Assembly (NCBI RefSeq): GCF_018390555.1
Contig: NZ_JAHBGB010000044.1
Coordinates: 213,424 to 277,423 of the forward strand
Direction of reading: 5' to 3'
DNA length: 64,000 nt
Origin: Ancylobacter oerskovii
GTDB lineage: Bacteria > Pseudomonadota > Alphaproteobacteria > Rhizobiales > Xanthobacteraceae
Shown here in pieces: positions 4,480 to 42,445 of this stretch. Numbering within the stretch: position 1 is the stretch's first letter; the number at the start of each line of letters is the position of its first letter. The position numbers and the translations under genes are program-made. The notes beneath the pieces were generated by a model. It was given only the letters and a program-made list of their open reading frames with translations. It did no database searches and was not told where the DNA came from.

Positions 4480-5637
4480 TTAACGGGAATTAACGATGAA
4501 ATCCAGAGGGGCACCCGTTAACGGCTCGTTACCGTTAACGGTGACGAGATAGGTCCGGCCGAGGCACATGGCGGTTTCGGTCTCGCTGTCCATCAGGATC
4601 ATGTGGGCGAACATCACCATCCCCGGCTCCAGCACCCAGGGATTGGCCTCGTAGAACATCGGCGGGTCCATCCAGGACGGGGTGAACTTGGCGCCGAGCG
4701 AATAGCCGCAGGCGGCGAGCCGGTGATCGGCCAGGCCGTGGCCGTCCATCACCTCGCTATGGGCGGCGAACACCTCGCCGGCGGTGCGGCCGGGGACGAT
4801 GTGGCGGGCGCAGGCCTCGAGCGCCCGCTTCGCGGCGTCGAACAGGTCGGTATGGCGATCATAGGGCTCGCCGATGACGACGGTCTCCATCATCGCCGCA
4901 TGGTAGTGGCGATAGGCGCCGGCCCATTCCAGCGTGATCTGGTCGCGCGCGCCGAGGCGGCGGCGGCCGGACTTGTAGCGGCAGAGCAGGGCGTCGCGGG
5001 CGGAGCCGATGATGAACTCGTTGCCGGGGTAGTCGCCGCCGCCCTTGAAGATGGCGCCCTGCATGGCGGCGAGCACCTCGCCCTCGTCGACGCCGGGGGC
5101 GATGAGGTCGATGGCCGCCTGCCGGGCGTCGAGCGCCAGCTGGCCGGCCTTGCGGACGTAGAAGATTTCCTCCTCCGACTTCACCGCCCGGAGATAATCG
5201 ACGAGGCCGGAGGCATCGGAGAGGGCGGCGAAGCCCTCGAAAGCGGCGTCGAGCTTGCGGCCATTGGCGGCGGTGAGGCCGTAGCTGTCATATTCGACGC
5301 CGATGCGGGCATGGGTGCCGCCGAGATCGGCCACCATGTCGCGCAATTGCTGCTGCGGCGTGGAATGCGCGGAATCGCGCCAGATGCGGATGTCCTCGAT
5401 CAGCGAGGTGTGCTGCGCCTGCCTGAGGTCCGCCGAACGGGTGAGCAGGGCGAAACGGCCATCGGCGCCCAGCCACAGCGACTGGAAGAAGCAGAAGCCG
5501 AACGTGTCGTAGCCGGTGAGCCAGTACATCGATTCCTGCTGGAACATCAGCAGGCCGTCGAGTTGGCGCTCCGCCATCTCCGCCAGCAGGCGGTTCTTGC
5601 GGCGCTCGAATTCCCGGGTGGTGAAATGCAGGCTCAT
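4480..5637 (-). CDS. M24 (creatinase/Xaa-Pro peptidase-like) hydrolase
   Basis: A 385-residue pita-bread-fold protein with an N-terminal creatinase-type domain (about 1-145, including SMYWLTGYDTFGFCF) and a C-terminal M24 domain (about 155-385). The metal-ligand positions of true aminopeptidase P look degenerate. Where a DxG..D pattern is expected it reads LEWAGAYRHYHAAM, and the usual GHG segment reads CGYSLG. It may therefore be a metal-independent, creatinase- or ectoine-hydrolase-like amidinohydrolase or amidase rather than a peptidase. The start codon lies 3 nt from the pgeF stop, so it is probably co-transcribed with pgeF. The substrate is unknown. Confidence 0.8.
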   Translation of the reverse strand: MSLHFTTREFERRKNRLLAEMAERQLDGLLMFQQESMYWLTGYDTFGFCFFQSLWLGADGRFALLTRSADLRQAQHTSLIEDIRIWRDSAHSTPQQQLRDMVADLGGTHARIGVEYDSYGLTAANGRKLDAAFEGFAALSDASGLVDYLRAVKSEEEIFYVRKAGQLALDARQAAIDLIAPGVDEGEVLAAMQGAIFKGGGDYPGNEFIIGSARDALLCRYKSGRRRLGARDQITLEWAGAYRHYHAAMMETVVIGEPYDRHTDLFDAAKRALEACARHIVPGRTAGEVFAAHSEVMDGHGLADHRLAACGYSLGAKFTPSWMDPPMFYEANPWVLEPGMVMFAHMILMDSETETAMCLGRTYLVTVNGNEPLTGAPLDFIVNSR

Positions 5638-41630: not shown

Positions 41631-42104
41631 TTAACCCGCGTGATGGCCCATTCGTTTCAGGCGGGAGACGGTTCTTTCCAGCGCCTGCAGGAATTCCGAG
41701 CGGTCGCGCGGCGAGAAGGGACGGGGACCGCCGGTGATCGCGCCGGTCTCGCGCAGATCCTGCATCAGGTTGCGGGTGGCGAGCTGCAGGCCGATGGAGG
41801 AGGCGGTGAAGGCCTTGCCGCCGGGCGCCAATGCCTCCGCCCCCTTCGCCACCACCCGGGCGGCGAGCGGCACGTCGGCGGTGACGACCACATCGCCGGG
41901 CTCCACCCGCTCGACGATCCAGTCATCGGCGATATCGGGACCGGCCGGGACGATCACCCGCTCGATCCAGTCGGTGCGCGGCACGTTGACGAAGCTGTTC
42001 GCCACCACGAACACCTTCAGCCGGTGGCGCTCGGCCACGCGGTAGGTCTCGTCCTTTACCGGACAGGCGTCGGCGTCGACATAGATGATGGTGGATCTGG
42101 CCAA
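41631..42104 (-). CDS. YaiI/YqxD family protein (UPF0178)
   Basis: A 157-residue protein of the UPF0178 (DUF188) family, which has a PIN-like fold with predicted nuclease potential. The N-terminal VDADACPVKDE motif supplies the acidic site, and VVTADVPLAARVV carries a second Asp. Biological role unknown. The first usable start is a TTG at 42104-42102 without a Shine-Dalgarno. It lies about 35 nt downstream of a hairpin terminator and a short ORF with an extreme Shine-Dalgarno. Confidence 0.88.
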   Translation of the reverse strand: MARSTIIYVDADACPVKDETYRVAERHRLKVFVVANSFVNVPRTDWIERVIVPAGPDIADDWIVERVEPGDVVVTADVPLAARVVAKGAEALAPGGKAFTASSIGLQLATRNLMQDLRETGAITGGPRPFSPRDRSEFLQALERTVSRLKRMGHHAG

Positions 42105-42134: not shown

Positions 42135-42168
42135 AAGAAAGAAGGGCTGCCCGTCAGGACAGCCCTTC
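42135..42168 (-). terminator. Hairpin terminator downstream of the short extended-SD ORF
   Basis: A 9-bp stem (GAAGGGCTG, 42141-42149, with CAGCCCTTC, 42160-42168) with a 10-nt loop. On the minus strand it is followed by TTTCTTCC. It would end a transcript of about 200 nt starting near 42334. It lies 30-odd bases before the yaiI start, so it could also act as an attenuator. Confidence 0.75.
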
Positions 42169-42227
42169 CCATGTCAGACCGCGGTCCGGCCCGGTAAACC
42201 GTCTGTTGGACGGTGCTTAGTGTCGCG

Positions 42228-42305
42228 TCACGCGGCACGGACCTCGCTAGAGGCAAGTGTCCAGGTCACGGATACGGACGACCGCGGATCAAGACGATCA
42301 GACAC
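42228..42305 (-). CDS. 25-codon ORF with 17-nt extended Shine-Dalgarno (rreB-like small mRNA)
   Basis: Starts with GTG at 42305-42303, whose first G is also the last base of the extended Shine-Dalgarno, and ends at TGA 42230-42228. Product: MSDRLDPRSSVSVTWT, then LASSEVRAA. The combination of a 17-nt SD, GTG start, very short peptide and compact transcript with its own terminator is the design reported for rreB (ribosome-regulated expression in Bradyrhizobiaceae; there a 14-residue peptide). A stem ACCGTC/GACGGT (42198-42214) and a GACCGCGGTC palindrome lie between the stop and the terminator. Homology of the peptide is not shown; the link rests on architecture. Confidence 0.65.
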   Translation of the reverse strand: MSDRLDPRSSVSVTWTLASSEVRAA

Positions 42306-42321
42306 TGGATCACCTCCTTTC
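42305..42321 (-). promoter_or_regulatory. 17-nt Shine-Dalgarno complementary to the 16S rRNA 3' end
   Basis: Read on the minus strand: GAAAGGAGGTGATCCAG. The plus strand reads CTGGATCACCTCCTTTC, which equals the 3' end of bacterial 16S rRNA. Ordinary SD sites match 4-7 nt. Sequence outside these 17 bases does not resemble 16S rRNA. The distance from GGAGG to the GTG is 7 nt, which is canonical. Confidence 0.9.
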
Positions 42322-42340
42322 GATTGTTGACGACGTTGTG

Positions 42341-42368
42341 AGCTTAGCGCGATTCGCGGCGACGTCAT
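42341..42368 (-). promoter_or_regulatory. Candidate promoter of the short extended-SD mRNA
   Basis: ATGACG (42368-42363, four of six bases of the -35 consensus), 16-bp spacer, then TAAGCT (42346-42341, three of six of the -10). Initiation near 42334 would leave about 12 nt before the Shine-Dalgarno. Weak sequence match; supported mainly by position. Confidence 0.3.
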
Positions 42369-42445
42369 CCTCCCTTGCGGCACGACTGTTCACATCCGGT
42401 TGCGGTGTGACATGTTCGGTGAGCGGTTCGATGCAGGAGGTGACG

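Follow-up and report, generated by a model that had tools for sequence, protein, structure and literature searches.

The window analysed here, a 64,000-nucleotide stretch of the Ancylobacter oerskovii genome, carries on its minus strand a short ORF that opens with GTG, shares the first base of that codon with an extended Shine-Dalgarno sequence (SD) and is followed by a GC-rich hairpin with a T-rich tail and then by yaiI (Table 1). A sequence-only reading had described this arrangement as an rreB-like small mRNA whose SD exactly complements the 3' end of 16S rRNA; its coordinates for the SD, the ORF and the hairpin were all confirmed, the SD against an Ancylobacter 16S end. Conserved blocks resembling -35 and -10 elements would place the 5' end of the RNA near position 42334, giving a predicted length of about 200 nt. 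Two long-range pairings would shape this RNA: helix S1, in which the later part of the ORF, a mimic of the 16S 3' end, pairs with the SD, and helix S2, in which early ORF bases pair with the segment directly 5' of the terminator. A clear terminator is present at 179 of 191 family loci and at 29 of the 30 in Ancylobacter.

Table 1. Features of the small-RNA locus, in window coordinates except for the last row
Feature	Position	Strand	Remarks
-35-like block GATGACGTC, TGACG conserved	42361..42369	-	29 aligned Ancylobacter loci (L029 omitted); putative promoter element
-10-like block TAAGCT	42341..42346	-	conserved in 29 aligned Ancylobacter loci; putative promoter element
Entire predicted RNA, about 200 nt, RF01867 (CC2171) relative	42135..42334	-	5' end predicted from the -10 block
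17-nt extended SD GAAAGGAGGTGATCCAG	42305..42321	-	last G is the first base of the GTG start
Short ORF, GTG start, 25 codons, VSDRLDPRSSVSVTWTLASSEVRAA	42228..42305	-	25 codons in 30/30 Ancylobacter loci
S2 5' arm, inside codons 1-10	42277..42303	-	predicted duplex with region ~42169-42191, E -32
16S 3'-end mimic CUGGACACUUGCCUCU, complementary to the SD (helix S1)	42249..42264	-	predicted duplex, -16.5 kcal/mol
H3 local hairpin GCCUC/GAGGU, would compete with S1	42239..42262	-	predicted fold
S2 3' arm GGCCGGACCGCGGUCUGACAUGG, adjoins the terminator	42169..42191	-	largely conserved in Ancylobacter
Intrinsic terminator: GC-rich hairpin and T-rich tail	42135..42168	-	read from the sequence
yaiI (DUF188, PF02639), TTG start ~30 nt past the terminator	41631..42104	-	Pfam E 1.4e-47
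SD of Gemmatimonadota loci L357-L370	locus position 1501	match strand	

No 16S gene was matched in the assembly itself by a search that likewise overlooked 16S in 5 of the 14 control genomes. The 16S 3' end was therefore taken from another Ancylobacter genome (L353; GGCTGGATCACCTCCTTTCT), and exactly 17 of its bases are complementary to the SD. This match is far from chance: the SD 16-mer occurs a single time in the 5.48-Mb genome, at the ORF locus, and a 20-base SD query with up to three mismatches has an expectation of 0.01 in the window. SD and start codon were found together in all 30 Ancylobacter genomes, in one copy each and in one genome with one mismatch; the 17-nt match, whose loss in close relatives would have spoken against the sequence-only reading, is thus retained. 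At up to one mismatch, the same pair recurred in 40 of 61 relatives, again in one copy each (none in all 61 genomes when the pattern was read backwards), and, with ATG or GTG as the start, in 186 of 397 genomes of the order, two of which have two copies (backwards control positive in one). Allowing no mismatch, any base before the start and ATG, GTG or TTG as start codon, we obtained hits in 51 of 318 genomes of the class (backwards control 0), a count that includes at least two loci resembling ordinary genes (L173 and L202). A phylum-wide draw with a slightly shorter SD pattern gave hits in 29 of 51 alphaproteobacterial genomes against 1 of 149 others (control 0). Four loci of this draw were viewed; the single hit outside Alphaproteobacteria (L400) resembles an ordinary 141-codon gene and was rejected as an RNA element, as was one alphaproteobacterial hit (L393) that is unlike the element. 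A looser search of the bacterial family, allowing two mismatches, was not used for a frequency, because it recovers 16S genes as well and its control was positive in five genomes.

The two ordinary-looking genes within the class count, of 57 and 56 codons and with a signal-peptide-like start, carry the full long SD, and the long SD alone therefore does not define the RNA family. Bradyrhizobium loci have the identical SD in front of a 14-codon ORF, and several genera carry the variant GGTGGTCC, which would pair with 16S through wobble. A natural example of a weakened long SD is found in another genome of the same family (G526, locus L352), in which CATTGTC, GACAATG and a terminator-like hairpin are kept while the SD reads GGTGGTCAGATG (also given as GGTGGTCAG), the RNA being retained.

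We then placed the element among known RNA families. An Rfam scan of the window at gathering level returned no match; a permissive scan aligned RF01867, 'caulobacter sRNA CC2171', to positions 42143-42329 with 66.6 bits (E = 9.7e-14), below the curated threshold of 75. The alignment runs from end to end over the 159-position model (1-159) and covers the long SD as well as the terminator and the helix that joins the start of the ORF to the pre-terminator segment. In the register of the model, four of the seven closing-helix pairs are non-standard in the window, where folding predicts a wider helix in a shifted register. In Rfam the family is catalogued as an sRNA gene; its printed structure has GG-CC pairing inside the SD and is without an SD:mimic helix. 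Across the bacterial family, 91 of 149 genomes matched RF01867 at E <= 0.01 (39 over the cut-off, best 100.8 bits), and by eye these matches coincide with the SD loci of the two-mismatch search, the exceptions being a match in G526 and six that score below 25 bits. Matches were also obtained in 74 of 318 genomes of the class, nine of them over the cut-off, and, among 14 control genomes, in Caulobacter vibrioides and Deinobacterium chartae, one of the two being over the cut-off.

The Bradyrhizobium small mRNA rreB is reportedly about 165 nt long, encodes 14 residues and has a 17-nt SD with a GTG start; it is said to bind 30S subunits, to co-sediment with them and to be weakly translated. The window element shares with it a 17-nt SD ending on the GTG start and the form of a small RNA with a terminator, but differs in its 25-codon ORF, which encodes an unrelated peptide; its predicted length is about 200 nt, against about 165 nt for rreB. 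Loci of the genus Bradyrhizobium encode the 14-residue peptide VSxxKRCHLAGIAR, which differs from the 25-codon ORFs in all 30 Ancylobacter genomes. One such 14-codon locus (L089) matches RF01867 with 47.7 bits (E = 6e-9), part of the score being supplied by the shared SD, and has both an SD complementarity inside its ORF and a long-range helix. The proposal that the element is a homologue or analogue of rreB holds in the sense of a relative. From its sequence we class it as related to both CC2171 and rreB without assigning it formally to either, because it scores below the Rfam cut-off and lacks the 14-residue peptide, both of which were tested.

rreR of the Rhodobacter lineage reportedly encodes 18 residues. 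Three loci in one alphaproteobacterial family (L193-L195) combine the long SD with an 18-codon ORF, the size given for rreR, and are putative rreR copies; two of them (L193 and L194) have CATGGTTCAG / CTGACCATG pairing just 5' of the hairpin, and L194 matches RF01867 with 46.7 bits. They differ from the window element in their ATG start and in weak SD:ORF pairing, with an S1 energy of -11.4 in L194. One genome of alphaproteobacterial family f64 (G569) has two clear RF01867 matches, the 18-codon, rreR-like L195 and the CC2171-like L219 (68.9 bits, SD AAAGGAGGTGATCGAATG, CATTGTC/GACAATG pairing). Second matches in G701 and G799 are weak, at 24.4 and 27.6 bits.

Literature searches on rreB/Bradyrhizobium, CC2171/Caulobacter and rreR/Rhodobacter gave nothing relevant; a wider search brought up accounts of Rfam 15 and of Mesorhizobium. 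Rfam 15 lists RF01867 among the families whose structure gained one covarying pair (PMC11701678), and part of the structure is thus already known to Rfam, since the printed model has the closing helix and this pair is listed. A Mesorhizobium huakuii study reports a 215-nt sequenced product for MH_s33, annotated as CC2171, which speaks for expression of a relative, and RNA-seq products for 34 of 35 non-riboswitch predictions (PMC5596092). For Caulobacter, Schrader et al. 2014 (PMC4117421) cite 27 ncRNAs from tiling arrays and place most ncRNAs in intergenic regions that are untranslated by ribosome profiling, a point counted against a ribosome-binding RNA; going by its name, CC2171 would be one of these 27. 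The paper on rreB appears in the reference list of another article (PMC7298713) as Hahn et al. 2017, RNA Biol 14:1353, and it may already describe SD masking or the CC2171 link.

To examine the predicted helices, we compared 198 loci, of which 191 in 68 clusters entered the S1 and S2 statistics. Removed beforehand were L077, L081, L082 and L083 (without a site within one mismatch), L160 (39-codon ORF), L173 (57 codons), L202 (56 codons) and L187, which may be genuine; three loci with too little flank were dropped in going from 198 to 191. Loci fetched later stayed out of these statistics, and of 108 such stretches in one scan, six were examined closely. Shuffling single loci was weak, reaching p <= 0.05 for S1 in 33 and for S2 in 32 of 148 loci, and because of this low power clustered and anchored tests were adopted.

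Complementarity between the SD and the later part of the ORF extends across the compared loci. Over the 191 loci, the SD:ORF duplex had a mean z of -1.54 (s.e. 0.15) against dinucleotide shuffles, negative in 62 of 68 clusters, and of -1.12 against synonymous recoding; by the latter measure, S1 is stronger than the peptide requires. Controls gave -0.17 for a reversed SD, -0.01 upstream and 0.04 downstream. The 30 Ancylobacter loci alone, which are near-identical and so not independent, had a mean z of -1.99 (downstream control -0.06). In the window, predicted duplex energies are -35.0 kcal/mol for SD:16S versus -16.5 kcal/mol for SD:mimic, and a 30S subunit could therefore displace the mimic.

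The mimic takes a different form in each type of locus. GTG-type loci often carry CTGGATC..CCTC, which codes for W-I-L-A-S and resembles the 16S end CTGGATCACCTCC; rreB-type loci have TCACCTC and often also CTGGGATC; and ATG-type loci often have GGAGCAGCCTYC, coding for E-Q-P-S. It is kept in different reading frames (for example in L112 and L114) and persists as CCGGATC in loci that no longer encode the tryptophan (L132, L133 and L144). A covariation count on 7-mers was mixed: SDs of the CCGA type mostly go with CGGATC in the ORF, those of the CCAG type with CTGG and those of the CCAA type with TTGG or CTGG, with exceptions. In L140 and L203 a changed SD (CCGG) comes without CCGGATC at the usual place. 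In a strict version of the test, fewer than six of seven bases were paired in 45 of 107 CCAG-type loci, among them the window locus, whose mimic is interrupted. Given this mixed count, our case for S1 is built on the energies.

S2 recurs with different sequences: CATTGTC/GACAATG in many GTG-type loci, AGTGAG/CTCACG or AATGAG/CTCATG in ATG-type loci, CATGAAT/ATTCATG in L200 and GTGATT/AATCAC in L190. In a swap test that anchors the 3' segment on the terminator, the arms of 64 cluster representatives scored 13.0 with their own partners versus 9.64 (s.d. 0.34) when swapped, and none of 20,000 swaps scored as high; unanchored, the signal was weak (mean z -0.49 versus -0.25 for the control). All 30 Ancylobacter loci belong to one 75-locus cluster, represented in this test by L132. 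The narrow X:X' pairing of the window itself is unremarkable, at 11.5 compared with a mean of 9.82 with the 3' arms of other clusters, 22 of 109 of which do as well. With wide arms, by contrast, the Ancylobacter loci reach -22.5 kcal/mol versus -15.5 kcal/mol with the 3' arms of other clusters (29 loci), and the shifted helix is carried by the inner CCGCGGUC / GACCGCGG. In Ancylobacter, then, it is the wider, inner helix and nothing else that speaks for S2. The predicted fold stacks S2 beside the terminator rather than in competition with it, and shows H3 in place of S1.

Selection on the ORF was examined by codon position. The 30 Ancylobacter ORFs comprise 21 distinct sequences, whose variable sites number 12, 13 and 14 of 24 at the three codon positions, and whose changed cells number 20, 28 and 36, the third position changing most. 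Leaving out the divergent L029, the first 32 bases of the ORF vary at one site only, and 33 of 55 changes are nonsynonymous (0.60, versus 0.71 expected at random). All 30 ORFs stop at the same codon and do so with three different stop codons, and because the short frame and the place of its stop are kept in this way, the translation of some frame is probably important even if the peptide is not. Start codons were part of the search pattern; loci found with the covariance model and having deviating SDs (L209, L213-L217, L219 and L352) also have ATG or GTG. When conservation of the SD and of the peptide was compared across relatives, as had been suggested, the SD was present in 30 of 30 Ancylobacter genomes and the ORF displayed little codon-position bias. 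Together with S1 beyond synonymous recoding and the S2 swap test, these near-even variable positions point to selection on the RNA more than on the peptide, in line with the original proposal that the element does not act through its peptide.

A counterpart came to light in another phylum. The pattern scan returned two loci in Gemmatimonadota MAGs, L255 (SD at 5473) and L330 (SD at 1259), and among 200 Gemmatimonadota genomes SD and start codon were found in 14 (control 0). Apart from the query's own, the 13 hits have a TTG start, 20-21 codons and the mimic GCGATCGCC or a version one base off. All 15 loci viewed then have a hairpin, with three or more T among the nine bases that come after it. 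S2 covaries strongly on 13 aligned loci: six of nine pairs are changed on both sides (reached by 7 of 500 shuffles), with 13 such cells where shuffles average 4.8 (0 of 500 reach it), 11 further pair types (reached by 63 of 500) and 96.2% of cells pairing versus 23-44% when slid. These percentages lean towards L359, from which the counted structure was read off, and the count retains L358, which is apparently misaligned. S1, being nearly invariant, says little by covariation; over the 15 loci its z is -1.40 (controls +0.40 and +0.44), and S2 beats all 20,000 swaps. Variable sites in the 12 ORFs of 20 codons number 12, 12 and 13 of 19 by codon position. The loci are hardly seen by any Rfam family, RF01867 detecting 3 of 11 at 32-36 bits, and a literature search on a Gemmatimonad SD small RNA, judged by titles, found nothing bearing on the element. 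In its sequence, the Gemmatimonadota RNA is thus similar in layout, with strong covariation; because its ORF and closing helix do not share the alphaproteobacterial sequences, we take this as a likeness of layout rather than as common descent.

Genomic context was considered as a source of function. yaiI lies directly downstream on the same strand in all 30 Ancylobacter genomes and, among loci with at least 700 nt downstream, at 14 of 70 other GTG-type loci from several families; it was found downstream of none of 62 ATG/other-type and none of 24 rreB-type loci. Control of yaiI was accordingly rejected as a general role, as was control of ggt, a neighbour of the RNA at no more than 30 of the 198 loci, all of them in Ancylobacter. 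A phage origin, considered in view of six hits on viral contigs, was likewise set aside as a general role. Three of these hits (L401, L402 and L404) are rreB-type, two (L403 and L406) have a peptide that begins with VSHC, as in the GTG type, and one (L405) resembles an ordinary 71-codon gene; in L404 and L406 the copy lies less than about 600 bases from the contig end, perhaps in host flank or an integration neighbourhood. Bradyrhizobium-type rreB copies in a Tepidisphaeraceae MAG (L259) and a Sphingomonas MAG (L267) probably sit on mis-binned contigs.

Comparison across loci, then, brings out a conserved SD, an ORF complementary to it, family-wide covariation in S2 and a terminator, without clear selection at the codon level; transcription at this locus, formation of a pseudoknot, switching, 30S capture and a physiological role are what we infer from that pattern. 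We lean slightly towards a structured ribosome-binding small RNA, related to CC2171 and rreB and not primarily a peptide gene, that captures or reports free 30S subunits. An unpaired leader would present the 17-nt SD, which would pair with the single-stranded 3' end of 16S rRNA over almost its full length and thereby capture a free 30S subunit. The 16S mimic in the second half of the ORF would pair with the RNA's own SD (S1), and early codons with the pre-terminator segment (S2); because SD, X, mimic and X' follow one another in that order along the RNA, S1 and S2 would together make an H-type pseudoknot that hides the SD. The local hairpin H3 over the mimic would compete and free the SD, and we suggest that pseudoknot and H3 alternate. 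The RNA would thus flip between a masked and an exposed state, a free 30S subunit winning the SD from the mimic. A helix right after the start codon may hinder accommodation, which would make initiation slow and translation of the short ORF poor, and the RNA would in this way buffer or report free 30S subunits. Of the mechanisms considered, a putative role as 30S trap or ribosome sensor finds the most support, and we give it a modest preference.

Three other explanations were weighed against the 30S trap. An ordinary small-protein gene, with the peptide as product and the long SD only setting expression, would account for the stop within 13-31 codons in all 148 loci, for the start codon at covariance-model loci with deviating SDs, for the kept stop position in Ancylobacter despite three different stop codons and for the likeness of related GTG-type peptides (VSHC..PR...W.LAS.EV.A). 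The recurring peptide motifs, however, coincide with the arms of S1 and S2, and their RNA is kept out of frame in L112, L114 and L005; the SD complementarity exceeds that of synonymous recodings; codon-position bias is slight in Ancylobacter and in the 12 Gemmatimonadota ORFs; and ATG-, rreB- and GTG-type peptides share, by eye, almost nothing past the second residue. We regard this explanation as unlikely. The GTPase Era reads the sequence GAUCACCUCC, and the element might instead be an antisense or decoy RNA in ribosome assembly, its SD pairing with pre-16S or its mimic competing for an GAUCACCUCC-reading protein and so tuning 16S maturation. The complementarity does reach nearly to the 16S terminus, including the linker before the anti-SD core, and the mimics resemble linker and core (GGAUC..CCUC; GAUCGCC in Gemmatimonadota). 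Yet a start codon and short ORF are kept even in loci found without a start in the query, and antisense pairing needs neither; in several loci, moreover, the mimic departs from 16S and stays complementary to its own SD (CGGATC with CCGATG). Such a role seems to us quite improbable.

The remaining explanation is a cis-acting leader of yaiI, in which ribosome occupancy of the short ORF would decide between termination and read-through. It draws on the same-strand linkage in all 30 Ancylobacter genomes and at 14 of 70 other GTG-type loci, on the absence of an SD from yaiI, which starts about 30 nt past the terminator, and on the scant room between the two for a separate promoter. Loci without yaiI, however, have the SD too and, taken as a family, keep S2 and the terminator, and the predicted stacking of S2 beside the terminator involves no competition with it; we hold a yaiI leader to be improbable. 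Attenuation of yaiI, which the sequence-only reading had offered as a second possibility, is locally possible in Ancylobacter and does not hold as a general role, given its linkage at 14 of 70, 0 of 62 and 0 of 24 loci elsewhere. That reading is thus borne out in part, for the relation to rreB and the primacy of RNA over peptide, and its central idea is for the most part right; it did not foresee the CC2171 relation, the SD-masking 16S mimic, the long-range helix or the Gemmatimonadota counterpart. What this analysis adds is the relation to CC2171, a reading of the ORF at the RNA level, the SD:mimic pseudoknot and the Gemmatimonadota counterpart.

These results supply a testable architecture of SD, 16S mimic, closing helix and terminator across Alphaproteobacteria, with the same layout in another phylum, and join a Caulobacter 'sRNA' family with a Bradyrhizobium 'small mRNA', two RNAs that Hahn et al. 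may already link. They also caution that conserved residues in a small ORF may in fact reflect base pairing in the RNA. Should the RNA capture 30S subunits, bacteria would possess an RNA devoted to sensing or buffering the availability of ribosomes. More tentatively, CC2171, rreB, the rreR-like loci and the Ancylobacter element may form one class with a Gemmatimonadota counterpart, a 30S decoy kept off by an SD-masking pseudoknot, whose state would report ribosome availability and whose ORF sequence would be a by-product. If this doubtful but possible scheme is true, the class would be to the ribosome what 6S RNA is to RNA polymerase.
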